Assembly (NCBI GenBank): GCA_964017065.1
Contig: OZ024783.1
Location: forward strand, 9,995,367-10,059,366
Source: Haliclona indistincta
Lineage: Eukaryota > Porifera > Demospongiae > Haplosclerida > Chalinidae
Reading direction: 5' to 3'
Length of the DNA: 64,000 bases
Below, one piece after another: positions 5,463 through 63,941 of this stretch. Numbering within the stretch: position 1 is the first letter of the stretch; every line of letters begins with the position of its first letter. A program made the position numbers and the translations under genes. Under the pieces are notes generated by a model. It saw nothing but the letters and a program-made list of their open reading frames with translations, did not search any database and was not told the DNA's origin.

Positions 5463-14139
<8,677 letters not shown>

Positions 14140-25336: not shown

Positions 25337-26221
25337 ATGGAGGCAACAGGACAGAACTACACCTTCTACTTCATAAGAGAATACTTGCCGCCAATGATAT
25401 TTTGGGTTTTGTGCATGGCATTATCACTCCTTCTTATTCCAGTACAACTTCTGCTCAATCGATCTCCTAAACTTAAAAGGTATGTCAAGACTCAATTCTT
25501 GATAAAGCATATTTTCAGCACAATGCTGAATAATTACATTGATAAGTCTGGGAAACAAATCTACACTATATTGAACTACAAAGTTCCAGAGAGGTACAAA
25601 GTCATGATGTTGGCTATGATGTTTTCTATGACAGGAGCTGGAGGACTGATATTTTGGGATATTTATCTATTTGAAGATTCGTACACTTGCAGCACTGATC
25701 CAGACCTAGCTTGCTTTCCTGCACAACCAAATATAACCACTCCACGTTTGGACTGCTCTAACACAAGCTTTTTGGAAGACAGGAACATCTCCTCCATCAT
25801 CTGCTACAGGCTTGTGTACAAACTAGGCCAAGCCACTGGAGGTGCACTTGGTATAATAACAACGAATGTCTTGTTTATTGTAGTCATCACTGTGCTTCTT
25901 CTTAAAGTGTCTAGTGGAAGTGAATGGAACAAGCGTCGTGCAATGCTCACTATAGCTATACAGATCACTATAGTAGTGATAACACTAGTCGTAACAGTTT
26001 CAATATGTTTTCTTCCTGGTCCAAAAACCACTACTCTTGAAAAACTAATCATTCGTCTGATGCTAAATCTATCTTTTCACTATACAATATTGTATAGTAC
26101 TGTGCTCTTTCCTTGGTGGTCTTTCAGTACAATAAACGACAAAGATGACAACAAGGAGAATGATAAAGAGGAAAGCAATGGAGAGTATAGAAGAGTAAGA
26201 GGAACATCAATACCAATATGA
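25337..26221 (+). CDS. Array gene 1: five-TM Cys-loop membrane protein (intact)
   Basis: A 294-residue, single-exon protein of a family I do not recognise. Predicted layout: short N-terminus with N-glycosylation site NYT (outside); TM1 about 18-40; basic cytosolic loop 41-87; TM2 88-110; extracellular loop with cysteines at 118, 126, 140 and 156 and sites NIT, NTS and NIS; TM3 163-190, starting with a glycine zipper (G164, G168, G172); short basic loop; TM4 202-226; TM5 240-262, ending FPWWSF; acidic cytosolic tail ending YRRVRGTSIPI. YRRV fits a YxxPhi endocytic signal, and the terminal IPI could be a class II PDZ ligand (inference). The ATG at 25337 matches the MEATGQ start of paralogues; upstream in-frame codons lack an ATG. 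Likely a plasma- or endosomal-membrane receptor, channel or adhesion protein. Confidence 0.85.
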   Translation: MEATGQNYTFYFIREYLPPMIFWVLCMALSLLLIPVQLLLNRSPKLKRYVKTQFLIKHIFSTMLNNYIDKSGKQIYTILNYKVPERYKVMMLAMMFSMTGAGGLIFWDIYLFEDSYTCSTDPDLACFPAQPNITTPRLDCSNTSFLEDRNISSIICYRLVYKLGQATGGALGIITTNVLFIVVITVLLLKVSSGSEWNKRRAMLTIAIQITIVVITLVVTVSICFLPGPKTTTLEKLIIRLMLNLSFHYTILYSTVLFPWWSFSTINDKDDNKENDKEESNGEYRRVRGTSIPI

Positions 26222-26361
26222 GTCTGAGAAAATGCACAAAGTGTAGCAACATACAGACTTCTGGTACATGTTTGTCTGTACTGCTCTTTACCTGTATGTC
26301 TTGTTTAGTAGAATCAATAACTATAGTAGCATTAATGATCATGTCTTAACAAAACCACTAC

Positions 26362-27432
26362 TTGTACTATAGTATCCACTGTGACACACCTGTACTATAG
26401 TATCCACTGTGACACACCTGTACTATAGTATCCACTGTGACACACCTGTACTATAGTATCCACTGTGACACACCTGTACTATAGTATCCACTGTGACACA
26501 CCTGTACTATAGTATCCACTGTGACACACCTGTACTATAGTATCCACTGTGACACACCTGTACTATAGTATCCACTGTGACACACCTGTACTATAGTATC
26601 CACTGTGACACACCTGTACTATAGTATCCACTGTGACACACCTGTACTATAGTATCCACTGTGACACACCTGTACTATAGTATCCACTGTGACACACCTG
26701 TACTATAGTATCCACTGTGACACACCTGTACTATAGTATCCACTGTGACACACCTGTACTATAGTATCCACTGTGACACACCTGTACTATAGTATCCACT
26801 GTGACACACCTGTACTATAGTATCCACTGTGACACACCTGTACTATAGTATCCACTGTGACACACCTGTACTATAGTATCCACTGTGACACACCTGTACT
26901 ATAGTATCCACTGTGACACACCTGTACTATAGTATCCACTGTGACACACCTGTACTATAGTATCCACTGTGACACACCTGTACTATAGTATCCACTGTGA
27001 CACACCTGTACTATAGTATCCACTGTGACACACCTGTACTATAGTATCCACTGTGACACACCTGTACTATAGTATCCACTGTGACACACCTGTACTATAG
27101 TATCCACTGTGACACACCTGTACTATAGTATCCACTGTGACACACCTGTACTATAGTATCCACTGTGACACACCTGTACTATAGTATCCACTGTGACACA
27201 CCTGTACTATAGTATCCACTGTGACACACCTGTACTATAGTATCCACTGTGACACACCTGTACTATAGTATCCACTGTGACACACCTGTACTATAGTATC
27301 CACTGTGACACACCTGTACTATAGTATCCACTGTGACACACCTGTACTATAGTATCCACTGTGACACACCTGTACTATAGTATCCACTGTGACACACCTG
27401 TACTATAGTATCCACTGTGACACACCTGTACT
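26362..27432. repeat. 28-bp minisatellite, about 38 units
   Basis: The unit CCTGTACTATAGTATCC followed by ACTGTGACACA is repeated head-to-tail about 38 times with no visible variation apart from the first and last partial units. There are no spacers. The paralogous position downstream of gene 3 (33523-33596) has only about 2.5 units, so the large array expanded after the genes duplicated. Confidence 0.98.
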
Positions 27433-27771
27433 CGATGTTTTAGTTGAAATAATTGTGTTCACTTCACTCATTGACTTCCTGCATGTTGCTGACTTATTAT
27501 AATAATTACGTTATATTTTATTGTATCACGTGATTCTGTCTGCCTCGTGCTATATTATAATCATATTTCAATCAGCTGAGCTGCCTTGTGGTGTACCCAC
27601 TTGATATAACGCGCAATCTCAACAGTTTTATTACAAGAATAATGTAAACAAAAATGGAATTTCAAGTAATAATTATTATCAGATTAACTCTGGTAATGGC
27701 GATGTATTGAGGTATTCAAGGTTCTGATTGTACATTTATCCTTTTGTAAATGCTAAATAAAAGATAATAAT

Positions 27772-28993
27772 TATTAGGGAGTCACGGTAGTGACTCCCTA
27801 TGTAGGGATGAACGAGAAAACAAGATGGCGGCTACATACAATGTATTAGCGTTCAAACGCTGATATTCCGCCTTGTGATGAATTTTAAACGTCCAAAATC
27901 ACTTAGATCTGCTCTCTAGCGTTGCCCCATCTTACAGTAGCAAGGAGATCGCTCGGAATTGTTACTAAAGTGACGAACCTGGAAACGGTGAAAATCGAGT
28001 TTCGTCATCTTCGTCTTCTTCTTTCTTCTTCTTCTTTCTTCAGCGCGCCTAGCGCCTTTATGCGAGCAGTGCCGAGACCAAAACACCCACGAACAGTCGT
28101 GAAATTCTCCTGGCAGGTGCCTTTCGAACTTCGTTTTTAACGAAAGGGCAATATAAATTCCGCGACTTCTCGATCGTGATCCATTGTCAGCTAAGTGTTA
28201 GACGCCATTATTGTGATTGCGCAATACGCACGTGACCAAGCAGTTGTTAGCGCACGTGACCAAGCACTAGCTTGAGTATCGCCGCGCCGTATCAATCACA
28301 GAGAACACATAATTTACTTGTCTTGAGTCTTCGAAGAACGGTAAGCTCGTGTAGGATCACTATTCTGCGCTTGCCAGACTATTATAACCTGTCCTCCGTG
28401 TCTACAAACAAGTGTGGGCGGGGCTCGTGTGCACTGCACGCATGTATGCGTAGGCGAGCTGATATGACAATCAATTTTTAGCTGTAATAAGAAAAGGCAT
28501 CAACAACAGTTAAAGTAAACTAATGGTGGAAACAAAGACGGCTCAGTACATGCATAATATTGAACTGCACTTCACTGAAAAAGAAAAAAGGACACAAACA
28601 AGAAATTAAAAAGATTTCTATCGAAATCAAAAGGATGTAGTGATGAAGAAATCTTCTACTGGTCCACAATGTAAACCAACAAGGAACAACCATGGAATGG
28701 TAACACGATTGACTTGCTAACAGACCATAGATCCCTACATCAGTGGCTGTACTTAAGATCGATATTTTGTCTCAAGCTGAATTCAATTCAATGCACGTCA
28801 TGTGTCAGTCAACAGCAACTAGCTGAACTAGCTATAGTCAGCCACAGCAGCCACTGATGTAGGGATCTATGGTCTGTTAGCAAGTCAATCGTGTTACCAT
28901 TCCATGGTTGTTCCTTGTTGGTTTACATTGTGGACCAGTAGAAGATTTCTTCATCACTACATCCTTTTGATTTCGATAGAAATCTTTTTAATT
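27772..28993 (-). mobile_element. Hairpin-ended foldback element, copy A
   Basis: An element of about 1.2 kb. One end is a hairpin GGGAGTCACGGTAGTGACTCCC. The other is a long foldback with arms of about 130 bp (28610-28740 and 28860-28990, each containing GACTTGCTAACAGACCATAG or its inverse). The paralogous flank at about 33920 is an uninterrupted AAAGATATAATCAAAG, so insertion was between A and T with no target duplication. Read on the minus strand the element ends hairpin-CTAA followed by T. No replication or transposase frame is present. Confidence 0.8.
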
Positions 28994-29153
28994 TCTTGTA
29001 ATCAAAGTCATGGTTCTGAAACTGAAACGTAGATTAAAAAGCCAAAATAGTGACCCACTATTGTTGTGGTGAAAAACTACTTACAGCTAATATAGAAGCA
29101 CGTCCATGTTATTCATTGCCCATAATGGTCCAAGAGAGAAATAGTAAACTATT

Positions 29154-30367: not shown

Positions 30368-30728
30368 TCTTCCATTTAGTTATGTATAGAGCTTGTGTTA
30401 TACACAAACCAGTATCAGTTCGATTCAAGCAATGCTAAATGATATTTGGGAAAAAACTTTCACTTTTATATTCCATACTATTGTGCAATGGTTAATACTT
30501 CTATTGTACACAGACAGTATGTGAATTGCTAGTTTGTATCAACTATGTTATAATGTTATGCAGCTTGTTTACAATAGCAATGTATTCTTTATACTGAAAG
30601 TAGCTTACATCACAGTAAAAATGTCAAAGAAAGTGTACAGGAAGAGCTTGGTCAAATAATCAACAAACTGACGGTACAGCCCTACTGACAGCTAGCACTG
30701 AGAAAAAATTGCGCTCTTTACAAGGACA

Positions 30729-31060
30729 ATGGAGGCAACAGGACAGACCTATAGCTACTACTTCACTAGAGAGTTCTTGCCACCATTAATCCTCTTTGTC
30801 CTGTACACAGCACTATCGCTCCTTCTTATTCCAGTACAACTTATGCTCAATGGATGTCCTAGACTTAAAAGGTATTTTAAGACTCAATTCTTGATAAAGC
30901 GAGTTTTCAACACTTTGTTGAATAAATCAACAGACAAGAATGGAAAAACGATTTACATTATAATGAAATACAGAGTTCCAGCGAGACACAAGGTCATGAT
31001 GTTGGCTATGGCACTTTCTATGTTAAGAGGTAGAGGAGTGACATTAATTTTTATTTATCC
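30729..31060 (+). pseudogene. Array gene 2: truncated five-TM family copy
   Basis: It starts MEATGQ and matches gene 4 closely through TM1, the cytosolic loop and the beginning of TM2. Homology stops near 31055, after a G-to-A-type divergence and loss of the FCDIYLFE block. The frame then runs 30 or so codons into unrelated sequence and stops at 31157. The Cys loop, TM3-TM5 and tail are absent. It has the family upstream block at 30536-30728, so it could still be transcribed. Best seen as a partial duplication or a copy cut by a rearrangement. Confidence 0.82.
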
Positions 31061-31675
31061 ATTTCTAATCATATCTGAGCATATTGTTTTTTGTCATACC
31101 AACTCATTGCAAGCGCTTACCCATCAGCATGAACACCAGGTGATTAAACTACCGTGAGATTTACGAGAGATGAGAAATACGTGATTAACTCATTTTCAGT
31201 CTGGTTTATCCGCCATCTTGTTTCGTGCCCACCCTAAATATGCCACGACTACCGCGTGGCATAATAGAATACTACACCTGCTGTAGATCTGTTAATAAAC
31301 CAAACATGCATCTTCACTATTGGGTTAATATCCTGATTAGCTATTATATGGCAGCTTTGCCTTTATAAACTCTTCTGACAGCAACTGTTCCAAAGACACT
31401 AGCCATGTTCTGAAGCTCTTGATTCAAGGCTTAGGTGACTGCTGTTTTCAATGAAAGACTTCTGAACGTTACACATTATTTTGTGTACTTGAATGTTTTC
31501 ACTACCGCAAGTGATATGAACATGCACAATACTATGACTTAACTTTGAACATGCACAATACTATGACTTAACTTTGAACATGCACAATACTATGACTTAA
31601 CTTTCAAAGTTAGTTTTGCTAAAGACACTGTGTATGTGATAATGATGCCTCTGTACTTTCATCCGGTCATGAGTT
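31061..31675. other. Non-coding stretch with a 29-bp triplicate repeat
   Basis: No gene beyond the run-on tail of array gene 2. At about 31515-31603 a 29-bp unit beginning GAACATGCACAATACTATGA occurs three times in tandem. Confidence 0.7.
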
Positions 31676-31712
31676 CTTGTATCAACTATGTCATAATATT
31701 ATGCAACTTGTT

Positions 31713-32328: not shown

Positions 32329-32487
32329 TTTTACATCAGCAGTTTATTCTTTATACTGAAAGTAGCTTGTGTCACTGTAAAATAACAAAGAAATTGCAGA
32401 ATTGTGTACAAAAGGTCACAACAAAGTTAGTTAAAGTGCCACACTGATAGCTCGTGCTGAGAAAACACACTCTCTTTGCAAAGGACA

Positions 32488-33366
32488 ATGGAGGCAACAG
32501 GACAGAACTACAGCTTCTACTTCATAAGAGAATACTTGCCGCCAATGATATTATTTGTGTTGTGCACGGCATTGTCACTCCTTCTTATTCCGGTACAACT
32601 TTTGCTCAATCGATCTCCTAAACTTAAAAGGTATTTCAAGACTCATTTCTTGATAAAGCAAGTTTTCAGTACTTTGCTGAATAAGTGCATTGATAAATCT
32701 GGGAAACAAATTTACACTATCTTGAACTACAGAGTTCCAGAGAGGTACAAGGTCATGATGTTGGCTATGGCACTTTCTATGTTAGGAGCTGGAGGAGTGA
32801 CATTTTGTGATATTTATCTATTTGAAGATTCGTACATTTGCAGCACTGATCCAAACTTAGCTTGCTTTCCTGCATATCCCAATTTGACTACTCCACGCTT
32901 GGACTGCTCTGACACAAACTATTTGGAAGACAACAACATCACCTCCGTCATCTGCTACAGGCTTGTGTACAAACTAGGCCAAGCCACTGGAGGTGCACTT
33001 GGTACAATAGCAATAAATGTCTTGTTTATCATTATCATCACTGTGCTCCTTCTTAAAGTTTCCAATGGAAGTGAAAGCAACAAGCGTCGTGCAGTGCTCA
33101 CTATAGCTATACAGATCACTATAGTAGTGATAATGCTAATCTCAGTTGTTTTCCAAATTAAAGTTCTTCCAGCACCAGTATACTTTACACATGAAAAAGG
33201 AATAATTTTGTTCGTGGCAAGTGCATCTTTTGAATATATAATAATGTACAGTACTGTGCTCTTTCCTTGGTGGTCTTTCAGTAAAATAAATGACAAAGAT
33301 GAGAATGATAAAGAGGAGAGCAATGGAGAGTATAGAAGAGTAAGAGGAACATCAATACCAATATGA
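32488..33366 (+). CDS. Array gene 3: five-TM Cys-loop membrane protein (intact)
   Basis: 292 residues, very close to array gene 1 in the N-terminus, cytosolic loop, Cys loop (CSTDPNLACFP, RLDCSDT, NNITSVICYR) and tail (YRRVRGTSIPI). It diverges strongly between TM4 and TM5, where gene 1 has FLPGPKTTTLEK and this gene has KVLPAPVYFTHEK. The glycine zipper GQATGGALG at the start of TM3 is kept. The ATG at 32488 is chosen by alignment. It carries the family upstream block, but that block is split by the MITE at 31713-32328, so its expression may differ from its paralogues. Confidence 0.85.
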   Translation: MEATGQNYSFYFIREYLPPMILFVLCTALSLLLIPVQLLLNRSPKLKRYFKTHFLIKQVFSTLLNKCIDKSGKQIYTILNYRVPERYKVMMLAMALSMLGAGGVTFCDIYLFEDSYICSTDPNLACFPAYPNLTTPRLDCSDTNYLEDNNITSVICYRLVYKLGQATGGALGTIAINVLFIIIITVLLLKVSNGSESNKRRAVLTIAIQITIVVIMLISVVFQIKVLPAPVYFTHEKGIILFVASASFEYIIMYSTVLFPWWSFSKINDKDENDKEESNGEYRRVRGTSIPI

Positions 33367-33522
33367 GTCCGAGAAAATGCACAAACTTTAGCAAAAGTGA
33401 TACATACAGACTTCTGGTACATGTTTGTCTGTCCTGCTCTTTAGCTGTATGTCTTGTTGTTAGTAGAATCAAAAACTATTGTACGAAGTGCTAGCATCAA
33501 TGATCATGTCTGCAAGACCACT

Positions 33523-34434: not shown

Positions 34435-35331
34435 ATGGAGGCAACAGGACAGACTTACAGCTACTACTTCACTAGAGAGTTCTTGCCGCCATTAATCCTC
34501 TTTGTCTTGTACACAGCACTATCACTCCTTCTTATTCCAGTACAACTTATGCTCAATCGATGTCCTAGACTAAAAGGTATTTTAAGACTCAATTCTTGAT
34601 AAAGCAAGTTTTCAACACTCTGTTGAATAAATCAACAGACAAAAATGGAAAAACGATTTACATTATAATGAAATACAGAGTTCCAGCGAGACACAAGGTC
34701 ATGATGTTGGCTATGGCACTTTCTATGTTAGGAGCTGGAGGAGTGACATTTTGTGATATTTATCTATTTGAAGATTCATACATCTGCAGCACTGATCCAA
34801 ATTTGGTTTGCTTTCCTGCATATCCTAACTTGACCACTCCACGCTTGGACTGCTCTGACACAAGCTATTTGGAAAACAACAACATCACCTCCGTCATCTG
34901 CTACAGGCCTGTGTTCAAACTAGGCCAAGCCACTGGAGGTGCACTTGGTATAATAACAACGTATGTTCTCTACATTATGTTCATTACTGTGCTCCTTCTT
35001 AAAGTGTCTAATGGAAGCAGATTTACCAAGCGTCGTGCAGTGCTCACTATAGCTATACAGATCACTATAGTAGTGATAACACTAGTCACAGCTGTTTCAA
35101 CATTATCTCTTCCAGCACCAATATCCGCTACCAATGAAAAACGAGTATTTTCATTCATGACATATGGATCTTTTTTGCTATAATATATTGTATAGTACCG
35201 TGCTCTTTCCTTGGTGGTCTTTTAAAAAAATAAACAGCAAAGAAGATGACAACAAGGAGAACGAAAAAGAAGAAGAAGATGAGGGCAATGGAGAGTATAG
35301 AAGAATAAGAGGAACTTCAATACCGATATGA
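34435..35331 (+). pseudogene. Array gene 4: five-TM family copy with two frameshifts
   Basis: The reading starts MEATGQ and is collinear with genes 1-3 to the terminal RGTSIPI. A one-base loss near 34571 (CTAAAAGG where paralogues have CTTAAAAGG) breaks the frame in the cytosolic loop. A one-base gain in a six-T run near 35171 breaks it just before TM5. Between the breaks the Cys loop, TM3 and TM4 are intact and well conserved. The tail is extended by an extra acidic stretch. It is a young pseudogene, or an intact gene with two sequencing errors. One break is in a homopolymer, the other not clearly so. Confidence 0.82.
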
Positions 35332-36168: not shown

Positions 36169-36216
36169 ATGAGAGTGATCAGACGTGTGTATCCACTAAG
36201 AAGAATATCCATTATT

Positions 36217-37103
36217 ATGAACAACCCAATGGACGTAGGACAAACGTACAGCTACTACTACACAAGAGAGTACTTGCCAACTCTGATCTTTTCTGTCTTG
36301 TGTGTGGCACTATCGCTACTTCTTATTCCAGTGCAACTCTTGCTCAAAGAAAGCCCTATACTAAAGCGCTATTTCAAGACAGAATTCTTCATAAAGCTTG
36401 TTTTCAGCACTATGCTGAACAAACACAGAGATAGAAATGGAAAAAAGGTTTATACTATATTGGACTATAAAGTTTCAATAAGATACAAAGTCATGATGTT
36501 GGCTGTAGCACTTTCTCTGATAGGAATTGCAGGAGGGTCGTTTTGGTACCACTTTTTATTTGAAAAATCTCATATTTGCAGCACTGATCCAGACTTGGCT
36601 TGCTTTCCTGCATATCCTAACATGACTACACCACGTTTGGACTGCTCTGACACGAGCTATTTGGAAGAGCGCAACATCACCTCCGTCATCTGCTACAGAT
36701 ATGCATACAATCTAACCAGAGCCATCGGATCTGGACTTGGTTTAATAGCAGTTAATGCTCTGTTTACTATCATCATCACTGTGCTTCTTCTCAAAGTGTC
36801 TAACGGAAGTGAATGGACCAAGTGTACTTTGTCGTGCAGTACTCACTGTAGCTATTCAGCTCACTATGGTAACAATACTGGAAGCATGCACAGCCCTTTT
36901 ATCATACCTTACATTAAATAGCAAATTAGAAACTACACGATTGCTGTTTAGTATTATGATCAATAGTTGCCTGATTTATACACCAGTATACAGTGCAGTG
37001 CTCTTTCCATGGTGGTCTTTTAAAAAACATCGAGGAAGAAGAAAGTGAACAGGAGAGCAATGGAGAGTATAGAAGAGTAAGAGGAACATCAATACCAATA
37101 TGA
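36217..37103 (+). pseudogene. Array gene 5: five-TM family copy with frame breaks
   Basis: It is collinear with the family from MNNPMDVGQTYSYY (an upstream in-frame ATG exists at 36169). A 7-bp insertion (about 36825-36831, TACTTTG-like) after SNGSEWTK shifts the frame before TM4. A change in the A run at 37022-37027 shifts it again after FPWWSFK. Beyond that, the expected acidic tail and YRRVRGTSIPI are present out of frame. The glycine zipper is weakened (first glycine replaced). The 7-bp insertion cannot be a homopolymer error, so this copy is most likely a true pseudogene encoding only TM1-TM3. Confidence 0.82.
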
Positions 37104-37430: not shown

Positions 37431-38406
37431 ATGATGGAAGCTACTCTTGCTGTAGTGAGTGCATTTCTGACAGTGTGTGTTGTTAGTGAGTTCACTCCTG
37501 TTGTCTACGAGATCACATCAACTTCACAATGTGATCAGCAGATACAATTCGACTATGATCAATGGTTGATGAATTCTCTACAGATAGTCCATCAGCAGCT
37601 ACCTCCTCCAGGATGCAACCCTCCTCGAACATGTAGAGATGTTCTTCGCTGCAACTCATCTGCCTCCTCAGGCTACTACCAGATCCAGGCTGCCAATGGC
37701 CCAGCTGTGCAGGTCTACTGTGACATGGAGGGGACTAACTGTGGAGGAGAGGGAGGCTGGATAAGAGTGGCTCATCTCAACGTGACTGACCCATCCAGTC
37801 AGTGTCCTGATGGCTCCAGACTAGTGACTGCTAACAATGTGAGGTTCTGTACTAGAGATACCAGCAGTGCTGGATGTCGAATCATCGCAAGTGAATCATT
37901 TGGACTGTCTTACTCTCAAGTTTGTGGTTATGCTCGAGGATATTCCTATCGTTCTCCAGGAGCATTTGAAACGGGCCTAATGTGTTACTCAGTGGTAACT
38001 ATGTTGATGGTGTCTCGATAACCTATGGCACACCACCTACTCACATATGGACCTATGCTGCTGGATTTGTTGAGGGTGACAACTCTCCAGCAAATTTATT
38101 CAACTGTCCATGCAACGCTATGATAGATGTGAACATTCTTCCTGGGTTTGTGGGCAGTGACTACTACTGTGAGGCTGGTTCTCTTCGCGAAGAACCGATT
38201 TGGTACACTAACGACACTCTTTGGGATGGTATGCAGTGTGGAGGAGTGGAGGGACCTTGTTGTAACCACATTGGACTGCCCTGGTTCCACAAGACCCCTT
38301 ATCAATTTCGACCGCTGCCACTATCACTACACGTGTCTGTATGAACGAAGACATCACAACTAATGTAGATCTTGGTATTGAACAGTTTGAACTCTACGTT
38401 CAATAA
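37431..38406 (+). pseudogene. Fibrinogen-related secreted protein with two single-base breaks
   Basis: It has a signal peptide (first about 19 residues), then PRTCRDVL and the motif SGYYQIQAANGPAVQVYCDM followed by GGWIRVAHLN. This is the short fibrinogen-related family common in sponges and cnidarians, probably an extracellular lectin-like recognition protein. Frame 1 ends at 38021. The expected continuation (NYVDGVSITYG, WTYAAGF, LWDGMQCGG, GPCCNHIGLPWFHKT) lies in the next frame from about 37976. The family C-terminus (RVCMNED...FELYVQ, stop at 38404-38406) is in the third frame. Both breaks are consistent with loss of one base in short G (37973-37975) and C (38295-38298) runs. If these are sequencing errors, the gene is intact. 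Unrelated to the surrounding array. Confidence 0.8.
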
Positions 38407-39164: not shown

Positions 39165-40046
39165 ATGAAGGTGACTGGACAGACGTACAGCTACTACTTC
39201 ACTAGAGAGTACTTACCGCCATCCATCTTCTTTATCTTGTGCATAATTGTAACGCTCCTTCTTATTCCTGTACAGCTTTTACTCAAACGTAGCCCTATAT
39301 TGAAACGCCATTTCAAGGCAGACTTCTTAATAAAGCATGTTTTCAGTTCAGTGCTGAATAAACAGAGAAACAGAAATGGTAAAACAGTTTATACTATATT
39401 GGACTATAAAGTTCCAAAGAGCTACAAGGTCATAATGCTGGCTATAGCACTTTCTCTGATAGGAGTTGCAGGAAAGACGTTTTGGAATGTCTACTTATTT
39501 GAAAAATCCTACATTTGCGGCACTGATCCAAAATTGGCTTGTTTTCCTGCACAACCAAATCTGACTACTCCACGCTTGGACTGCTCTGACATAGCCTATT
39601 TGGAAGACAACAACATCACCTCCATCATCTGCTACAGATATATATACAATCTAAGTGGCGCAACTGGAGCTGCACTTGGTATAATAGTGATTGATGCTCT
39701 GTTTATTATTATTGGTACTGTGATACTTCTCAAACTCTCTAACGGAAGTGAATGGATCAAATGTCGTGCAGTCCTCACTGTATCTTTTCAGATCACTATA
39801 GTAGCACTGATAGCTGTTTACATAGCTGTTCTAGCGTATGTGTTTCCAACTACAGGAAATTACACTATAGAAATTCAAGTTTTGTTCATCACAGAAAACG
39901 CATTTACTCTTTATACAATACTATACAGCACAGTGCTCTTTCCATGGTGGTCCTTTAAAAAGATGAAAGACAAAAAAGAAGATGGTGATGATGAAGGGAG
40001 TAATGGAGAGTATAGAAGAGTGACAGGAACATCAATACCGATATGA
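39165..40046 (+). CDS. Array gene 6: five-TM Cys-loop membrane protein (intact)
   Basis: 293 residues starting MKVTGQTYSYYF. All family features are present: TM1 with LLLIPVQLLL, basic loop with YTILDYKVPKSYK, TM2, the four-cysteine loop (C before GTDPKLACFP, then RLDCSD and NNITSIICYR), TM3, TM4, a variable outer loop with an extra glycosylation site (NYT), TM5 ending FPWWSFKK, and an acidic tail ending YRRVTGTSIPI. Relative to gene 1 the glycine zipper reads SGATGAALG. It is closest to array gene 5. The ATG is unambiguous because upstream codons diverge. Confidence 0.86.
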   Translation: MKVTGQTYSYYFTREYLPPSIFFILCIIVTLLLIPVQLLLKRSPILKRHFKADFLIKHVFSSVLNKQRNRNGKTVYTILDYKVPKSYKVIMLAIALSLIGVAGKTFWNVYLFEKSYICGTDPKLACFPAQPNLTTPRLDCSDIAYLEDNNITSIICYRYIYNLSGATGAALGIIVIDALFIIIGTVILLKLSNGSEWIKCRAVLTVSFQITIVALIAVYIAVLAYVFPTTGNYTIEIQVLFITENAFTLYTILYSTVLFPWWSFKKMKDKKEDGDDEGSNGEYRRVTGTSIPI

Positions 40047-40574: not shown

Positions 40575-40790
40575 TGAGGTGTGTGAATTTTCTCAGACTC
40601 ATATTGGTATTGATGTTCCTTTTGCGCCTATATACTCTCTATAATACTCTCCCCATCATTTTTTGTGATTTATTTTTTTGAAAAGACCACCAAGGAAAGA
40701 GCACATTGCTGTACATTGTTATGTTCATAGCCACAGTGAGCATTGCACGACGCTTGCTGCTTCCACTTCTGTTAAAGTGTTAGGCCAGAG
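40575..40790 (-). pseudogene. Inverted 3' fragment of an array gene
   Basis: The minus strand matches the start of TM4 (KRRAMLTVA-like), then jumps directly to YSNVLFPWWSF and a degraded tail ending GTSIPI. The sequence between TM4 and TM5 is deleted, and the frame is broken in the tail. It is the only family member on the minus strand, about 530 bp past gene 6, so it marks an inversion or inverted duplication. Confidence 0.82.
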
Positions 40791-42335: not shown

Positions 42336-43238
42336 ATGGAAACAACAGGGCAGGTCTACAGCTACTACTTCACAAGAGAATGCTGTCCACAAATCGTTCT
42401 TTTGATTCTGTGGGCACTAGCGCTACTTCTTATTCCCGTACAACTGATGCTCAATCGGAGCCACAAAGTACAGCGCCATTGCATCACACAATTCTTGATT
42501 GAGAATGTATTTAGCATTATGTTGAACAAACGCATTGATAGAGATGGTAAAGAGGTCTGCACCATATTGAACTACAGAATTCCAGATAGATACAAGGTCC
42601 TGATGTAGGCTATGATGCTCACTCTCATGGGAGTTGCGTGGGTGCTGTTCTGGGATATTTTTCTCTTCCAAGAAACACACAGTTGTAGCACTAATGCAGA
42701 CCTGGCTTGCTTTCCTGCATATCCTAACATGACCACTCCACGCTTGGACTGCTCTGACACAAGCTATTTAGAAGACAACAACATCACCTCCGTCATCTGC
42801 TACAGGTTTGTGTTCAGATTGGGCCTTGCTACAGGAGCTGCTTTTGGTGAGGTAACCACTATTACTATGATCATTGCTACTATCACCTTGCTCCTTCTCA
42901 AAGTTTCCAACGGAAGTGAATGGAACAAGCATCGTGCAGTGCTCACTATAGCTATACAGATCATTACTGTAGCGATAGCAGTGGGTGCCGCCATAGCAAT
43001 ATATGTGGTTGATAGGAGCACGTCATCAGTTGAATTACAAGCAATCAGAATCGTGAGAGACTCGTCAGTCACGTATACAGTGATATATAGCACTGTGCTG
43101 TTTCCATGGTGGTCCTTCAAGAAAATGAAAGACAATGAAAATGAAGAAGATTATTACATCAAAGAACAATATAAAACAAGAAGAATAGGAATCTTAGCAA
43201 CTGTATTAGTGAGGTGGCTTAACAGCCAAATTTGCTGA
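42336..43238 (+). pseudogene. Array gene 7: nonsense codon plus transposon-captured tail
   Basis: It is collinear with the family from METTGQVYSYYF to FPWWSFKKMKD. A TAG at 42606-42608 lies where paralogues have TTG (VMMLAMA), stopping translation at the start of TM2. After the acidic tail begins, the frame runs into the left arm of a long-inverted-repeat transposon (from about 43204), which supplies the last dozen residues and the stop. The normal YRRVRGTSIPI end is lost. Downstream of the stop the Cys loop (CSTNADLACFP, NNITSVICYR) and TM3-TM5 are well preserved, so inactivation is recent. Confidence 0.85.
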
Positions 43239-48200: not shown

Positions 48201-48605
48201 ACTATAGCAATACAGATCACCGTGGAAGTAATAATAATGGGAATAGCAGTTGGTCTATCATATTTCCAATATTACACAGCATCTTCAATAGTAGAACTAG
48301 CTATTACAATTGTAACAAACATACTCACAATATTGGCAATATTAGTCGGCACAATTGGCACAATCTTTCTACCTTGGTATTCTATAATTGTTCAAATCAA
48401 CAATAATATAGTTTATAATCTTAATAAGAGAAAGAAGGAAAGGAAGAAGCAGCCAAAGAAGAAGAAAAAACAACAAGTGAACAATCAAGAGAATAAAAAA
48501 CATGAAGAGAAAGTTCATGAACATGGAAAGCAAGAACACAATAATGACGTACGTATTCCCGTGTCTGATTCTCTTTCGTCACAAAGTTCGGGGACAAACG
48601 ATTAG
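48201..48605 (+). pseudogene. Array fragment 7b: TM4-TM5 and Lys-rich tail only
   Basis: From ACTATAGCAATACAGATCAC the frame reads TIAIQIT and continues through a TM4-like helix, a loop, and a TM5 ending TIFLPWYS. It matches only the last third of the family; TM1-TM3 and the Cys loop are absent upstream. The tail is unusual: about 30 residues rich in Lys (RKKERKKQPKKKKKQQ), then a Ser-rich end. The open frame persists to 48605, which argues against long decay, but there is no in-family start codon (an ATG at 48237 lies inside TM4). A 5'-truncated relic or a terminal exon of an unseen gene. Confidence 0.6.
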
Positions 48606-49644: not shown

Positions 49645-50466
49645 ATGGAGACAGTGTACTACAGCTGCTACTACCATTGGAATGTTTCGCAATTGATCAT
49701 CCTCTTTACATCATACATCTGTACAATGGCAATTAGTCTCTGCCTATTCTCAAAAACATTCAGACAATGGATTACTCTTATTGTAGAACACGTGTTCAGT
49801 TTTATGCTGAAAAGTTACACAGATAAGGACGGCAAAAAAGCACACTCTATATCGAATTACAAAGTTCCAGAGAATTATATCTCTGGACTGATGGTCATAG
49901 TGCTCAATCTGTTTCAAGTTGCTTTTACACAATTTTTGGATAAGTTCTTATTTGAAGAAACACAAGGTTGCACCGCTGATAAAACTCTTGACTGCTTTCC
50001 CAGTAATGCAGCACTAGATACTCAGCGATTGGACTGTTCCAACACAAGTTATTTGATGGATAACAATATTACCTCTGTCATCTGCTACAGGCTTGTGCTC
50101 AATCTAGGTTTAGCCACTGGGTCTGCACTTGGTACAGTAACAACCACTGCTCTGGCCATTTATTTACTCACTTTCTTTATTCTAAAAGTATCAAATAGAA
50201 AATGTGACCGCATATCATGCCGTGTATGGATAACAATTTCAATAAAGATCTTTCTTGCAATAGCAATTTTTATTGCTGCTATTCTTTTGGCTTTTTATCA
50301 AGGTGCAACAACTTCTACAGCAATAAAAGGAACAATAGTGTTCATGAGAAACTTAATCATAGGTTATGCAATAGCGTACAGTACTTTATTCTTTCCATGG
50401 TGCCAGTTCGAAAAGATTGAAGAAGACAATGGTGAAAGGGAACCGTTACTAGTGAAGACACTATAA
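49645..50466 (+). CDS. Array gene 8: five-TM Cys-loop membrane protein (intact, subfamily 2)
   Basis: 273 residues starting METVYYSCYYHW. Only about a third identical to gene 1 by eye, but every landmark is kept: TM1 (ILFTSYICTMAISLCL), basic loop with SISNYKVPENY, TM2, Cys loop (C before TADKTLDCFP, RLDCSNTS, NNITSVICYR), glycine zipper GLATGSALG, TM4, and TM5 ending FFPWCQF. The loop between TM1 and TM2 is shorter than in the gene 1 group. The tail is short and ends EREPLLVKTL; EREPLL fits the acidic di-leucine motif [DE]xxxL[LI] for AP-complex sorting. It lacks the RGTSIPI end. Start is the first ATG after the conserved upstream block. Confidence 0.85.
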   Translation: METVYYSCYYHWNVSQLIILFTSYICTMAISLCLFSKTFRQWITLIVEHVFSFMLKSYTDKDGKKAHSISNYKVPENYISGLMVIVLNLFQVAFTQFLDKFLFEETQGCTADKTLDCFPSNAALDTQRLDCSNTSYLMDNNITSVICYRLVLNLGLATGSALGTVTTTALAIYLLTFFILKVSNRKCDRISCRVWITISIKIFLAIAIFIAAILLAFYQGATTSTAIKGTIVFMRNLIIGYAIAYSTLFFPWCQFEKIEEDNGEREPLLVKTL

Positions 50467-55082: not shown

Positions 55083-55907
55083 ATGGAGACAGTGTACTAC
55101 AGCTACTACTTCTATTGGAATGTTTCACAATTGATCATCCTCTTTACATCATACAGCTGTGCAGTGGTAATTAGTCTCTGCCTGATATTCTCAAAAACAT
55201 TTAGACAAAGGTTTACTCCTATTGTAGAACATGTGTTCAGTTCTATGCTGAAAAGTTACACAGATAAGGACGGCAAAAAAGCACACTCTATATCGAATTA
55301 CAAAGTTCCAGAGAATTATATCTCTGGACTGATGGTCATAGTGCTCAATCTGTTTCAAGTTGCATTTACACAATTTTTGGACAAGTTCTTCTTTGAAGAA
55401 ACACATGGTTGCACCGTTGATAAATCTCTTGACTGCTTTCCCAGTAATCCAGCAATAGATACTCAGCGATTGGACTGCTACAATACAAGCTATTTGATGG
55501 ATAACAACATTACCTCCGTCATCTGCTACAGGCTTGTGCTCAATCTAGGTTTAGCCACTGGGTCTGCACTTGGTACAGTAACAACCACTGCTCTGGCCAT
55601 TTATTTACTCACTTTGTTTATTCTAAAAGTATCAAATAGAAAATGTGACCGCATATCATGCCGTGTATGGATAACAATTTCAATAAAGATCTTTCTTGCA
55701 ATAGCAATTTTTATTGCTACTATTCTTTTGGCTATTTATCAAGATGCAACAAATTTACATGCAACAAAAGGAATAATAGTGTTCATGAGGAACGCTATCA
55801 TAGGTTATGCAATAGCGTACAGTACTTTAGCCTTTCCATGGTACAAGTTCGAAAAGATTGAAGAAGACAGGAGTGAAAGGGAACCTTTAACAGTGAATAA
55901 ACAATAA
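55083..55907 (+). CDS. Array gene 9: five-TM Cys-loop membrane protein (intact, subfamily 2)
   Basis: 274 residues, a recent duplicate of array gene 8 with near-identical upstream sequence and long identical coding stretches. Cys loop (C before TVDKSLDCFP, RLDCYNTS, NNITSVICYR), glycine zipper GLATGSALG and TM5 ending AFPWYKF are kept. Differences concentrate in TM1, in the loop between TM4 and TM5 (QDATNLHATKG versus QGATTSTAIKG in gene 8) and in the tail. The tail ends EREPLTVNKQ, so the di-leucine motif of gene 8 is lost here. Reads as functional. Confidence 0.85.
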   Translation: METVYYSYYFYWNVSQLIILFTSYSCAVVISLCLIFSKTFRQRFTPIVEHVFSSMLKSYTDKDGKKAHSISNYKVPENYISGLMVIVLNLFQVAFTQFLDKFFFEETHGCTVDKSLDCFPSNPAIDTQRLDCYNTSYLMDNNITSVICYRLVLNLGLATGSALGTVTTTALAIYLLTLFILKVSNRKCDRISCRVWITISIKIFLAIAIFIATILLAIYQDATNLHATKGIIVFMRNAIIGYAIAYSTLAFPWYKFEKIEEDRSEREPLTVNKQ

Positions 55908-56848: not shown

Positions 56849-56850
56849 TA

Positions 56851-58019: not shown

Positions 58020-58859
58020 ATGGGGAATTTGCTGCAATGTCCAAGTCATTTCTTAACTATTCAGACTATACTTTTTCAATCAGTTGTATTCACAGCCATA
58101 ACTGTTGCCTGTATACCATATTTAAACAAACTATTGTGGTTCTGTTTCAAACGAATATGCAACAGACAGTTATGGAACAAACAATGGCTACAAAATAAAG
58201 TTGATGCAGTAGTGGAATGTGTATTTGACAAAATCTTGACAAAGCACGGCAGTGAAGAAGAGGGAAATGTTTATATTGTAATGAACTACAAAGCTCCTCA
58301 CAGCTACACAAATCTGTTGTTTCTCACTTTCATAATTTTGATTGTCAGTGCAATCGTGCAATTTTGGGACGAGTTTTTGCTTGAAGAATCATATGACTGC
58401 AGTACAGAGAGATTAGTTTGTTGCTATAGCGGTTTTTCAGAGTTTGACTGTTCAAATGCATCAGACAAAAACAATAATCCTGTCATCTGCCTCAAGTTTG
58501 TGTTCAAACTAGGACCTGCTACTGGATCTACTCTAGGTATAATAGGGACTATTGTGCTCTCCATATTTGCCATTACTTGGTGCCTCCTGAAAATTTCCAA
58601 AGGCTCAAGACGAGGATGGTGCCGAGCAATACTCACTGTTTTCTTTCAGGTTGCTGCTACACTGATAATATTAGCAGCTACAATAGTACTGTGCAATCAT
58701 AGAATCATGTTATATCCTACGTTCTCAACAAAACTATTTGAGAAACTAGCAGAAATTTATCCCATAGGTCTTTTAATATCAATCTACATCGTCTTTTTTC
58801 CTTGGAGAAAGTTTGTCAAGAATGATGACATACAAGAATACAATCCTCTTCAAGCTTGA
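58020..58859 (+). CDS. Array gene 10: five-TM Cys-loop membrane protein (intact, subfamily 3)
   Basis: 279 residues starting MGNLLQCPSHF. TM1 (SVVFTAITVACIPYL) is followed by a basic loop with WLQNKVDAVVECVFDKIL and VMNYKAPHSYTN, then TM2 (LLFLTFIILIVSAIVQFWDEFLLE). The Cys loop differs from genes 1-9: CSTERLVCCYSG replaces the DPDLACFP form, adding a cysteine, and NNITSVICYR becomes NNNPVICLKF. The glycine zipper is GPATGSTLG. TM5 ends VFFPWRKF and the tail is very short, ending EYNPLQA, where YNPL fits a YxxPhi sorting signal. The ATG sits after a tandem CTATAGTAT-rich leader. Closest relative is array gene 12. Confidence 0.84.
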   Translation: MGNLLQCPSHFLTIQTILFQSVVFTAITVACIPYLNKLLWFCFKRICNRQLWNKQWLQNKVDAVVECVFDKILTKHGSEEEGNVYIVMNYKAPHSYTNLLFLTFIILIVSAIVQFWDEFLLEESYDCSTERLVCCYSGFSEFDCSNASDKNNNPVICLKFVFKLGPATGSTLGIIGTIVLSIFAITWCLLKISKGSRRGWCRAILTVFFQVAATLIILAATIVLCNHRIMLYPTFSTKLFEKLAEIYPIGLLISIYIVFFPWRKFVKNDDIQEYNPLQA

Positions 58860-59306
58860 CTCTTGACATTCATATAATTACTGTGAAGATTACAACAAGA
58901 AGATGTCCACAACAATTAACATTATCATATTGTTAAATTACAATCTTATGTGCACACTTGCATTGTGTAAGTACATAAATAACACAGCATGCATCATTAA
59001 TATTCATGTGTATGTACACAGTTTACTGACATTGCTATTATTTTGTAGCACAAATTATTCATTGTTTTATCTCTAGCTCTATGTTTCTGTCCCTGGTACA
59101 CTGTCAAACTAAACTGAATGAATTCACTTAGAGTAACCAACTATCATAGTAGCCAACAACAGCTGTACTATGATATAGTTTACTCGATTCTAAAGGGGTG
59201 GAACAAGACTTTGTTAAGCTTCCGTAGCCAAGACTGAACTGTAGCTGACAGTAAAGTGTTTACAGAGTCGAAACTTAGGATAGAACAAAATTTGCCTTCA
59301 AACAGG
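58860..59306. other. Intergenic stretch before array gene 11
   Basis: No gene or repeat recognised. Confidence 0.4.
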
Positions 59307-60720
59307 ATGTCTACCCTCCAAGAAACTACAATGGATAAAGCAGGATACAACTACAGCTTCTATGCTGCATTGCAGATCGTACCATCTTACATCATACTAG
59401 TATCCCTATCAGTAACAACCATTGGTATTCTACTAGTATCAATCAATGCTGCAAATATCCTAAACTAATACCTCCTGTGAAACGCATCACTCAGTGGTTG
59501 GTAGAGCAAGTCTTTAGTGTTATGCTGAAGAAGCGTACTAACAATGAAGGAAGAAAGGTTTATACTGTACTAAACTATGAAGTTCCAGATGGATATGTAC
59601 GCTTGCTGTTAGCTACAGTGCTCAATCTCATTGGAGTAGCAGTTATAAACTGTTGGGACGTCTTTTGGTTTGAACAATCATACATTTGCAGCACTGATCC
59701 AGACCTGGCTTGCTTTCCTCTGGTCAATGAAATGAGTCCTGAATTATCTACTCCACCGCTGGACTGCTCTAACATGAGCAACTTTCAAGAAAATAACATC
59801 ACTTCTGTCATCTGTTACATGTTTGCATACAGGCTAGGCTCAGCCGCTGGATCTGCACTTGGTTTAGTAACGACCACTGCTCTGACGATTTACATAATCG
59901 GTCTGCTTCTTCTCAAAGTTTCCAACGGAAGTGGATGTACCAAGCGCCGTGCAGTACTCACTATAGCTATACAGATCACTATAGTAGCAATAGCAATGGG
60001 AATTGCAGCTGGTTTAACCCTTCAAGTGCGGACAGCAATTCCAGCCTCTCTTTTGTGAATTTCACTAACCTTTGTAACCACTAGACAGACAAACTAGCGC
60101 TGTGATCGCTGTTAATATGCAAAATCAACTTGCACAACGTGCGGGCTTGTCGTCAATGACAATTGCGGTTAACCACGCCCACTTGACGATCTACCAACTG
60201 TCGTGTGCTAGAATCACTCTCACCGGAGCAAAAAGCGCCGCTTGTTCGCTCAAAACAGCACGTGTGAGACAAATTTAGTGCACGAATGGCTGCTTTTTAT
60301 GTCAAGAAGCCCCTGGAGACCCAGTGGTGCTAGGTAATCCCGCCATAGCTCTGCTTGGCGGGGCCGCAGGCCCCGCCAATGGCTCGCCATCACACCCCAC
60401 ATAGCTGTATTTGGTCCATAGGTGAAATAAACTATCTTCGAATTTTAACGCCCACTTCCGGTGACGTCAAACTTGCCGGGCGACTATAGTCGCCCGCCGC
60501 TTTTGAAGGGTTAACTTATCTTCAAATCCAAGTCGCCTCAACCATAGAAGAATACCTGGTCATTATTTGCATCAACTTACTAATAGTTCTTGCTATATCA
60601 ATCGGTACCATTTTCTTCCCTTGGTGCTATTTCACGAAAGTCAACAAGCAAAATAGACATGACGATGAGCTAATGATGATTCATAATATAAAAGTGGGAA
60701 ATCAAGAACAGTTTTATTAG
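59307..60720 (+). pseudogene. Array gene 11: broken by a frameshift and a piggyBac-type MITE
   Basis: It starts at MSTLQETT or, by alignment, MDKAGYNYSFY at 59331. A frame change near 59447 (consistent with a 2-bp gain) ends the first frame just after TM1. The second frame holds the amphipathic loop, TM2, a Cys loop enlarged by a few residues (LACFPLVNEMSPELST), the glycine zipper GSAAGSALG and TM4. Within the end of TM4 a 493-bp MITE (60018-60510) interrupts. The rest of the gene (LQIQVASTIEE, TM5 ending IFFPWCYF, polar tail, stop at 60718-60720) resumes in frame when it and one TTAA are disregarded. Two lesions make it a pseudogene. Confidence 0.87.
60018..60510. mobile_element. piggyBac-type MITE inside array gene 11
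   Basis: It is flanked by the tetranucleotide TTAA on both sides (60014-60017 and 60511-60514), with inverted ends CCCTTCAAGTGCGG and CCGCTTTTGAAGGG. TTAA duplication and CCC ends are the piggyBac signature. It carries GC-rich internal palindromes. No transposase. Its reading continues the host frame for 14 codons before a stop. Confidence 0.92.
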
Positions 60721-61430
60721 TTATATACCATAGTGAGTGGGTGTCCCCATACAAGGCACAGGTGGTATATTCGTCATATTCCCCACCATGGTGCACACCT
60801 CAGTTAACCCATTGAAGAGTGAATTTCTCATATACCTCCATGGTGGTATATATCGCATAATCCCCCATGGAGGTATATGAGAAATACACTCCTCAAGGGG
60901 TTAACCAAGAGGTGTGCCCTGGTCACGTGACCAGGTTGAGGTTGCACAACGGCATCCTCGGAAAGTTATTCGCCTTGCAACTAGCAGCACCCAGTTGCAG
61001 GGCGACGATGCGCAGAAGTGGCTGAGATTTATAGTGTACAATCATCCTGACACTAGTGGGTATTAAATTGGCAAGCATGTGACAAACCCCGCCCAAGTCA
61101 TGTTGAATATTGCAAGAACAATTTGTAAAACTTGGCGATCGCTCTTTCGCTCTAGAAGCACAAAGCTGTCCAAGTCTTTCCCACACACTCTACTCAGGTA
61201 CGCGTACACACTTGGGGCCTCCTCTCGGCCCATGACTCACCGCTAAATCGAGATCCACGCGAACGCGAGCAAGAAGCGACGCCCACACGCTAAGGTATAT
61301 AACATATGAACCATGGCTTGTCGGTGTGTATGCCGAATATACCACCCTCGGTCTCGGGTGGTATATTCGGCATACACACCTCCAAGCCATGGTTTATATA
61401 TTACATATTATTATTAATAATTATAATAAA
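60721..61430. repeat. Cluster of nested palindromes with a TTAA-flanked micro-element
   Basis: 60808-60900 is a near-perfect palindrome flanked by TTAA (60804-60807 and 60901-60904). Its ends CCCATTGAAGAGTG and CACTCCTCAAGGGG resemble the piggyBac-type MITE ends nearby. A second palindrome at about 61306-61404 has arms with ATGCCGAATATACCACCC and its inverse around a short loop. A related GGTGGTATATTCG piece is at about 60762. No gene is seen. Confidence 0.75.
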
Positions 61431-61977
61431 CGCTAAATACATCATTAATCTAGGTAGCAATGCCTCAAGATGACCATTAATATTCAGAGACAGAAATTTG
61501 CATTTTCTTCCTGCGCAAAATGTAGTACACACGCGCGCGTGCACACACACACACTACAGTAGTAGTTGAGTGTCAATTTGTAGAAGGGCTGAGTTGCTAT
61601 TGGCTCAGTGTCAACTATAACACACACTCATAATATGCACTCAATGCAGCCAACTGTTAATAGCAAATTTTGTTCTAATCATCAATCTCATGAGTACAAT
61701 GCCCAGATCAGCAGATACTACTAAACCCACAATACAAACAAAGGGTTAAATTAAACAGAAAGTATTCATTTATAGTTTTTGCACACTACAGACATTCCAT
61801 GATTGCTCGATCACATTTTACTATCAATTATTTCTGTGAATACTTGCAGCATTATGTCTATCACCTGTAAATCATATTCATAATAAATATGTTACCAATA
61901 TTCATTGATATGAATACGTTTAAGTATCCAGGGTTGTGATAGTTCACTTAGTTATTTTAGTAGCGTACTAGAGCAAA
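61431..61977. other. Intergenic stretch before array gene 12
   Basis: No gene. Only a short (CA)n tract near 61535. Confidence 0.4.
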
Positions 61978-62817
61978 ATGGGATCTTTGCTGACAATCCC
62001 ATGTCCAGATTATGGACTCATCTATCAAATAGAGGCAATTCTGCTATTGATTGTTTGAAACATAGCCATGTTCATTGGATTCATGCCATTGTTCAACTAC
62101 TGCAGCTGGAGATGGTTCAATTGCTGGCCCAATCATCACCAGTGGCTTCAAGACAAAGTCAATGCAGTCATAGAGCGCGTGTTTGATCAGGTCTTGAAGA
62201 AGAACGACCAAGATGAGTATTTTGTACTAGACTATAAAGCTCCCACTAACTACACAAACCTATTGTTCCTTACTCTTGTTTTTGTCACTGTCAGCGCAAT
62301 AGTGCAATTCTGGGACGAGTTCTTGTATGAGGAGTCCTTTGATTGCATCACACAGATATACACTTGCTGTTACGGACAAATCCAAAACTCAACTCAATAC
62401 TTAGACTGCTCTGACACAAGCTATTTGGAGGACAACAACATCACATCCGTTGTCTGTCATAGGTTTGTGTTCAGAATAGGCCAAGCTGCTGGATCTGCAA
62501 TCGGTATAATAGCAACTAATGCACTGGTCATACTTGTTATCACTTGGAGCCTATTGAAACTTTCCGATGGATACAAAGGCAAAGGATCCTGTCACGGAGT
62601 CATTACAGTACTCATACAAAGTGGTTCAGCTCTGATAACATTGTCAGTCACACTACTAATGTGTATCTACAACATTGTGTCGTATCCAGGCTCCTCACTC
62701 AAAAAGATACTGCAAATCTATCCAATAGGCATTTTAATATCAATCTACATCTTGATTTTTCCATGGACAAAATTTGAAAAGATTGACAAAGTCACACACA
62801 CTGATAACATTCCTTGA
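61978..62817 (+). pseudogene. Array gene 12: subfamily 3 copy with a stop codon in TM1
   Basis: Aligned to array gene 10, the start is the ATG at 61978 (MGSLLTIPCPDY). An in-frame TGA at 62056-62058 lies in the middle of TM1. Everything after it is open to the normal stop: basic loop with WLQDKVNAVIERVFDQ, TM2 ending IVQFWDEFLYEE, Cys loop (CITQIYTCCYGQ, LDCSDTS, NNITSVVCHRF), glycine zipper GQAAGSAIG, TM4, and TM5 ending LIFPWTKF. A downstream ATG (62068) could start a protein lacking half of TM1. One substitution would account for the lesion, so it is either a very young pseudogene or a base-call error. Confidence 0.8.
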
Positions 62818-62984
62818 CATCCATAAACAGTGCACCACATTTAATAGTAGTACACTATATAAACATGTGATAAGAATACTCACGTGATTCTTATCATGTT
62901 ATCTACCATAGTACATAATGTCAACAAGACACTGCTGAGCTGATCTGTACACTCGCCAGTGGACCCAGACTTGTAACAGCAACA

Positions 62985-63941
62985 ATGGAATCAGTCTTTC
63001 CAGGCAGTGTCACTACATATTTCATTGGAAGCTGTCAAACATACAGATGCTACTTTTGGTCAAAGGAAGCTGTAGAGATCACTTTCTTTTGCTTGTTTGT
63101 GCTGCCAGGTATCTTTTGGCCGGTTGCTTCAGTGTGTTGCTCTTGTTGGACAAGATGTGGCTGTATCAAGAAGAAGACAGAATCAAGATGTTGTGGGTGT
63201 GGTTGGACTGAACCAGTTGTACAGTTTGTGTTTGGTAGTGTCTTGAAGGAACACATTGATGGAGATGGAGAAAGAGGATATACTATATTCAACTATAAAG
63301 CCCCTGATTGTTACAAGGCATTTCTGTTCTCTAATGTGTTACAACTGATTGGTATAGCATTGATGCAATTCTGGGACATCTTCCTACTAGACGAGTCTCG
63401 TATTTGCACCACTGATCCAAACCTGGCTTGCTTTCCCTCTAATCCTATGCTGTCTACTCCACGCTTGGACTGCTCTGACACAACCTTTATAGAGAAAAAC
63501 AACATCACATCCTTCAGCTGCTACCGGTTTGTGTTCAAACTAGGTCCAGCCACAGGGTCTGCAGTTGGTATAGTGACAACCACTGCTTTGATCATAAAGT
63601 ACATGGTTCCATTGATTCTCCTCAAGATTTCCAAAGGTACAAATGGGTCAAAGTGTCAAAAATGCTCAACTATAGCTATGCAAATCGTTTTATCCCTACT
63701 AGCGGCACTGCTGACCAGTCTTATGGTGTATTTGCGTTACGCAATATCATACTCTCCACTGGAACTGCTCAATGCTATCAGATACCTACCAATAGGTTAT
63801 ATCATAACAAGTAACATCATCTTTGTTCCTTGGTTTAAATTCAAACAGATTGAAGCTGAGACTGAAGACGAAGATGAGTATCGAGTGACACCAATAAACT
63901 ACCCACGTGTCAAATATCAAAAACTAAAAAGTATTGACTGA
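62985..63941 (+). CDS. Array gene 13: five-TM Cys-loop membrane protein (intact, Cys-rich inner loop)
   Basis: 318 residues, the longest member. N-terminus MESVFPGSVTTYF, TM1 about 30-55, then a segment unique to this copy: a cytosolic cluster of about ten cysteines (CCSCWTRCGC, then RCCGCGW), which could be palmitoylated or bind metal (inference). After it the family pattern resumes: VFGSVLKEHIDGDGE and YTIFNYKAPDCYK, TM2, Cys loop (C before TTDPNLACFPSN, RLDCSDT, NNITSFSCYRF), glycine zipper GPATGSAVG, TM4, TM5 ending IIFVPWFKF. The acidic tail has YPRV and YQKL, both fitting YxxPhi. It ends 59 bp before the window edge, so the array may continue. Confidence 0.86.
   Translation: MESVFPGSVTTYFIGSCQTYRCYFWSKEAVEITFFCLFVLPGIFWPVASVCCSCWTRCGCIKKKTESRCCGCGWTEPVVQFVFGSVLKEHIDGDGERGYTIFNYKAPDCYKAFLFSNVLQLIGIALMQFWDIFLLDESRICTTDPNLACFPSNPMLSTPRLDCSDTTFIEKNNITSFSCYRFVFKLGPATGSAVGIVTTTALIIKYMVPLILLKISKGTNGSKCQKCSTIAMQIVLSLLAALLTSLMVYLRYAISYSPLELLNAIRYLPIGYIITSNIIFVPWFKFKQIEAETEDEDEYRVTPINYPRVKYQKLKSID

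Follow-up and report, generated by a model that had tools for sequence, protein, structure and literature searches.

A tandem array of a five-helix membrane protein family without a library name in the sponge Haliclona indistincta

Which family of membrane proteins is repeated along a single chromosome of the sponge Haliclona indistincta, and what might so many copies be for? The question is raised by a stretch of 64 kb, called the window below, in assembly GCA_964017065.1 (144.0 Mb, 46 contigs; contig OZ024783.1, here C1:9995367-10059366). Much of it is occupied by uninterrupted genes, lying in tandem, for proteins of about 270–320 amino acids with five predicted transmembrane (TM) helices and a four-cysteine outer loop (the Cys loop). 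The family is without a name in the libraries that were searched.

The array and the shared protein architecture

Comparison of 12 window copies with the window by tblastn located 13 family copies on the + strand between 25337 and 63938, plus fragments. Seven are uninterrupted full-length open reading frames (ORFs) and six are decayed, as expected from an earlier reading of the sequence alone (the sequence-only reading), which had counted at least 13 same-strand copies and some fragments. Chance likeness is excluded because the best non-self match of the family in the genome has an E value of 5e-150. The family features of the window are as follows.

25337..26221, +: g1, intact, g1/g2 type, C-terminal TSIPI (ORF, tblastn)
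30702..31157, +: decayed copy, N-terminal portion alone (tblastn 30702-31103; ORF from 30729)
32488..33366, +: g2, intact, g1/g2 type, C-terminal TSIPI (ORF, tblastn)
34435..35328, +: decayed copy, frameshifted, three pieces (tblastn)
36169..37100, +: g3, decayed, C-terminal part frameshifted (tblastn)
39165..40046, +: g4, intact, C-terminal TSIPI (ORF, tblastn)
40615..40773, -: weak antisense family piece, 35 bits (tblastn)
42336..43238, +: g5, decayed, full-length frame with one stop (tblastn)
48222..48605, +: TM5-like C-terminal fragment (ORF; likeness judged by eye, absent from the tblastn list)
49645..50466, +: g6, intact (ORF, tblastn)
55083..55907, +: g7, intact, query for structure model 2 (ORF, tblastn)
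58020..58859, +: g8, intact, variant cysteine spacing (ORF, tblastn)
59453..60678, +: g9, decayed, broken, with a C-terminal piece at 60511-60678 (tblastn)
61978..62817, +: g10, decayed by a single stop close to the N-terminus; frame open from 62068 (ORF, tblastn)
62855..62864, +: TATA-like stretch TATATAAAC in the 167 bases that separate g10 from g11 (core in 9/9 aligned copies)
62985..63941, +: g11, intact, 318 amino acids, the type with the most constrained TM4-TM5 (ORF, tblastn)

The antisense piece is perhaps the remnant of an inverted copy. The broken g9 has a full-length relative, P0043, which is 93% identical over the shared part.

The common features of the family were counted on an alignment of 61 rows. 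Five hydrophobic segments and an inside-positive charge pattern fit a predicted topology with the N-terminus outside and the C-terminus inside. TM1 starts within about 20–45 residues of the N-terminus; an amphipathic helix and a beta-hairpin lie between TM1 and TM2, and the Cys loop, with its glycosylation sequons, between TM2 and TM3. This loop is the most conserved region of the protein (3.03 bits per column), and a sequon within it, at position 142 of g7, is present in 53 rows. The motifs described by the sequence-only reading are shared unequally: the four cysteines are near-universal (present in 60, 61, 61 and 60 rows, respectively), but the exact spacing C-x7-C-x13-C-x15-C, which that reading gave for g1, is found in 42 of 61 (g8, g9 and g10 lack it), the FPW motif in 46 (VPW in g11) and the small-residue zipper pattern of TM3 in 50. 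An AlphaFold2 model of g7 (mean predicted local distance difference test score 90.1, predicted template modelling score 0.83) has five long helices, in agreement with the five TM helices first proposed.

The C-terminal end TSIPI occurs in 22 of the 52 ORFs of the locus longer than 250 codons, and SIPI in three of the 23 proteins assigned to a second genome (see below). We take such tails to match the class II PDZ-ligand pattern. Eight of the nine g11 loci have a long g10 ORF whose end lies 166–256 bases upstream of g11; the ninth has a partial copy. The TATATAAAC core is kept in the gap at all nine, from which we infer that g11 probably has its own promoter.

Searches for known relatives

No Pfam family matched the members consistently, either for eight window copies at E 5 or among the matches listed for 16 members, and no 7tm profile appeared in either set. 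In the eight window copies, there was likewise no match to the insect odorant and gustatory receptor profiles 7tm_6 and 7tm_7, to Neur_chan, to the pannexin, innexin, LRRC8 and CALHM profiles, or to immunoglobulin (Ig), lectin or other recognition domains. With NCBIfam, any one family hit at most two of 16 members; the single-member matches, down to 6e-4, were rejected. Sequence searches of the PDB found no relative, and the best match of the profile search (E 0.061), a dehydrogenase, was rejected. Pattern matches in IMG/VR viral contigs (175) and in GTDB prokaryote genomes (15) yielded none that was confirmed.

Three protein database searches returned 56, 23 and 83 proteins, with weakest E values of 9.5e-16, 2.6e-32 and 2.2e-16, and all were read as members of the family; the last search reached E = 10, yet every match was at 2e-16 or better. 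The earlier description of the family as uncharacterised thus stands. The structure search that had been proposed as a check was based on the confident g7 model and gave no clear fold match in the PDB, none being at E 0.001 or below. Bombyx Gr9 was matched by Foldseek at E 1.3 with a TM-score of 0.24, and the rows for G-protein-coupled receptors (GPCRs), rhodopsin, TMEM16 and LRRC8 were treated as common helix arrangements. Other families do not appear among the fold matches listed, which does not exclude them. The accessible parts of three sponge papers (PMC7385117, PMC4302439 and PMC12909245) do not describe the family, and we claim no absence from print.

Extent of the family and duplication of blocks

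The genome was searched with seven members, giving at least 135, 125, 139, 133, 113, 141 and 135 matches. The lists were united by hand and same-strand matches within 100 bases were merged, a count in which broken copies can appear twice and unscored copies are missed. The union has 219 places, of which 216, whole or broken copies, lie in C1 7.954-11.214 Mb (3.26 Mb); 196 of these 216 are on the + strand, they form 19 tracts, and 138 span at least 780 bases. The remaining three are at C1 13.10-13.14 Mb, and one further place outside the union is at C6:3376244. The local expansion, with several subfamilies and frequent decay, that had been noticed in the window therefore goes far beyond the scale first claimed.

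The order of types recurs along the locus. Thirteen places were typed by hand as g11, from identity and position, and all 13 have a g10-type match just upstream; the two starts are 989–1008 bases apart in 12, and the thirteenth has a partial g10 match. In 10 of the 13, the pair is preceded by a g9-type place; in nine of the 13, a second g11-like type comes within the next 3.5 kb. Successive g10-g11 pairs are 26 to 731 kb apart. About 0.95 Mb from the window, the tract C1:9050635-9087610 carries the family at 10 places, every one on the - strand. Some of these score exactly as window copies do (9080194 equals 10034537, and 9083413 equals 10031601), which suggests that this tract is an inverted duplication, perhaps a recent one.

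Together with the recurrent g10-g11 pairs, the co-amplification of two neighbouring sequences, an ATM-like kinase and a methyltransferase (see below), indicates that blocks carrying the family and both of these sequences were duplicated, after earlier rounds of duplication had given rise to the subfamilies.

Age of the subfamilies

Many of the 96 database proteins are identical to copies in this genome, and others are not. For P0055 and P0053, the best-scoring genome matches are 38–41% and 40% identical, respectively, with none above 50% among the matches listed. Seventeen proteins encoded on a contig of 787453 bases are at most about 70% identical to the window copies and 46 loci, a part of this genome's copies. 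We infer that this contig and two others, of 411709 and 16886 bases, belong to another genome. In a tree of 56 rows, the 23 proteins assigned to it fall among the subfamilies of the present genome, with 11 label changes, at least eight of them forced by well-supported branches; the joins of P0050 with P0053 and of P0055 with P0054 are possibly false long-branch joins. If the assignment is right, the subfamilies would predate the split between the two genomes.

Selection on intact copies

Intact copies of three groups (16 of the g1/g2 type, 12 g4-like and 16 of two g11 types) were fitted with a purpose-built codon model having one rate pair per region, with kappa fixed at 3, no recombination or gene conversion and no check by simulation. 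The overall ratio of non-synonymous to synonymous rates (omega) is below 1 in each group: 0.6, 0.5 and 0.4 for g1/g2, g4-like and g11, with twice the log-likelihood difference (2dlnL) at 30.5, 51.6 and 101.6. The Cys loop is under purifying selection in all three (omega 0.5, 0.35 and 0.2; 2dlnL against omega = 1 of 11.6, 16.7 and 31.7).

The TM4-TM5 region behaves differently between groups. Its omega is 1.3 in g1/g2 versus 0.5 from the N-terminus to the second intracellular loop (ICL2) (2dlnL 11.3; weaker, 4.3, in a nine-copy subset), and 1.0 in the g4-like copies versus 0.4 for the preceding part (2dlnL 16.1). For g11, the corresponding values are 0.2 versus 0.35 (2dlnL 6.0). TM3 in g1/g2, and ICL1 and the C-terminus in g11, are not distinguishable from omega = 1. 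Some subfamilies thus combine a fixed outer loop with a loosely held TM4-TM5 hairpin. Diversifying selection, suggested by pairwise dN/dS above 1 in TM2, ICL2 and TM4 of eight g1/g2-type copies, was not confirmed by the tree-based fit of 16 copies (0.25 for ICL2).

Neighbouring and co-amplified genes

The other features of the window are listed here.

4036..4908, -: CmcI/rhamnosyl O-methyltransferase-type gene (Pfam E 9e-17)
6409..14191, -: pieces of an ATM-like kinase gene (Pfam FAT and PI3/PI4-kinase matches; the name ATM is our own reading)
15281-23462, -: three tandem POT-family transporter genes, adjoining the array
37431-38344, +: secreted-looking gene, located between g3 and g4 and occupying two frames (Pfam E 5e-5, below cut-off, for weak similarity to COLFI/fibrinogen C-termini)

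The ATM-like gene adjoins the family array; it contains simple repeats at about 9700-9890 and 11860-12160, which read as SL-type and SIHP-type frames on the - strand. Its kinase exon at 7514-7984 is found at 12 places in C1 8.20-11.18 Mb and elsewhere as one weak match (C2, 48%). By coordinates, 10 of the 12 places have a family copy on the matching side no more than 25 kb away, those at 8.685 and 10.900 Mb being the exceptions. As the exon is nearly confined to this region, the ATM of this genome may exist only as the amplified copies there. The methyltransferase has 11 loci in the family region (pieces within 3 kb merged), and further loci at C1 6.8 and 16.4 Mb and on C7 and C9. That ATM-like sequence has been amplified in blocks along with the family is itself unusual.

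What the family may do

We tentatively favour a reading in which the proteins, with their constant outer loop, are subunits of receptors or channels and together form a sensory or interaction repertoire. Such receptors or channels would be oligomeric and their subunits located at the cell surface, with the Cys loop as a folding or assembly cap; the conserved C-terminal tails (TSIPI in many copies of the g1-g4 type) would bind inner scaffolds. The subfamilies differ mostly in TM1 and in the hairpin formed by TM4, the second extracellular loop and TM5, which could set the preference for a ligand, lipid or partner. The g11 type, with its strongly constrained hairpin, might act as a shared partner, possibly along with the neighbouring g10 type, and the expansion would maintain the repertoire in the fashion of chemoreceptor arrays. 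In favour of this reading count the five hydrophobic segments with their charge pattern, the confident five-helix model, the conserved and purified Cys loop, the TM4-TM5 contrasts between groups, the TSIPI tails, the subfamilies that would predate the split from the second genome and the g10-type place upstream of all 13 g11-type places. A bolder form of this idea seems to us unlikely: a new animal class of five-helix receptor or channel subunits with its own fold, arranged along 3 Mb in about 13 ordered cassettes, in which constant (g10/g11) and variable-hairpin partners would combine into the sensory or cell-interaction repertoire of one lineage.

Several results weigh against a repertoire of receptor or channel subunits. 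No search of Pfam, NCBIfam, the PDB or folds named a function, and the presumed common partner g11 is itself multi-copy. In none of the three groups does any region significantly exceed omega = 1, and TM2 in the g1/g2 and g4-like copies is not distinguishable from 1. A site scan placed seven sites at a posterior above 0.9 in g1/g2 and gave no such site for the g4-like and g11 copies. In 10 tests (lowest p 0.076), the fast sites showed no helical face or periodicity; this lends no support to a pocket between TM4 and TM5 and agrees with simple relaxation of constraint. The array could instead have grown passively, in a hotspot of segmental duplication that copies the family, the ATM-like sequence and the methyltransferase together, with dosage or decay and no repertoire function. 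We regard this as somewhat unlikely. It accounts well for the 12 kinase-exon places and 11 methyltransferase loci, for decay in six of 13 window copies and for the near-neutral TM4-TM5 of two groups, and has a precedent in gene clusters of the sponge Ephydatia muelleri, for which the accessible part of PMC7385117 describes segmental duplication; it accounts less well for an overall omega below 1 in every group of intact copies, for the 138 of 216 places that span at least 780 bases and for subfamilies common to the second genome.

Families of immunity or allorecognition are expected to have variable ectodomains. A surface family that marks self or binds microbes, expanded under conflict, would suit the large clustered expansion with decay, the distant copies with identical scores and the secreted-looking fibrinogen/collagen-C-like gene inside the array. 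The outer part of these proteins is not variable, however, and no recognition domain was matched in the eight window copies. The recognition role at which the sequence-only reading had hinted is not supported in the form of a diversifying Cys loop, the loop being the most conserved region and purified in three groups, although two of the seven candidate fast sites of g1/g2 lie in it. We consider an immune role improbable. More improbable still is descent from a known family of channels, receptors or transporters, so diverged that the libraries searched would miss it: the structural alignments have root mean square deviations of 9.8–12.3 over 127–154 residues, with Z scores common for helical models, and the Pfam matches are not common to members.

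With some two hundred gene places on a single chromosome, intact copies kept by selection and no library name, the family constitutes an annotation gap, and surveys based on named domains would overlook it. If the preferred reading as receptor or channel subunits is true, it would bear on the ways in which nerveless animals perceive one another or their environment.

Comparison with known systems

Chemoreceptor arrays are known from vertebrate odorant receptors, insect odorant and gustatory receptors and nematode 7TM receptors. The sponge array resembles them in its many same-strand copies of a multi-helix membrane protein, its subfamilies and its broken copies. It differs in having five predicted helices, an outer disulphide loop as the most conserved part and no 7tm match in the eight window copies; GPCRs have seven membrane helices, whereas the family has five hydrophobic segments and five long helices in the model. 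The C-x13-C between the second and third cysteines recalls the pentameric Cys-loop receptors, but the N-terminus here is short, without a large N-terminal outer domain, and the five helices and the absence of a Neur_chan match in the window copies also set the family apart. Pannexins and innexins, LRRC8 and CALHM, which form large-pore channels, are likewise small multi-helix proteins with a disulphide-bonded outer loop; they have four helices instead of five, and their profiles gave no match in the eight window copies.

Among sponges, a census based on Pfam kept 220 GPCRs in Amphimedon queenslandica, according to the accessible part of PMC4302439; a survey of that kind would leave out the present family, which has no 7tm match. 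Part of PMC12909245 reports 126 NLR genes in Dysidea avara, over 15 chromosomes and some of them clustered. The closest parallel in genome organization comes from Ephydatia muelleri, where the segmentally duplicated clusters described in the accessible part of PMC7385117 include a heavily duplicated mGABA receptor cluster. Whole clusters have been copied in both sponges, those of E. muelleri from named families and that of H. indistincta from an unnamed one.

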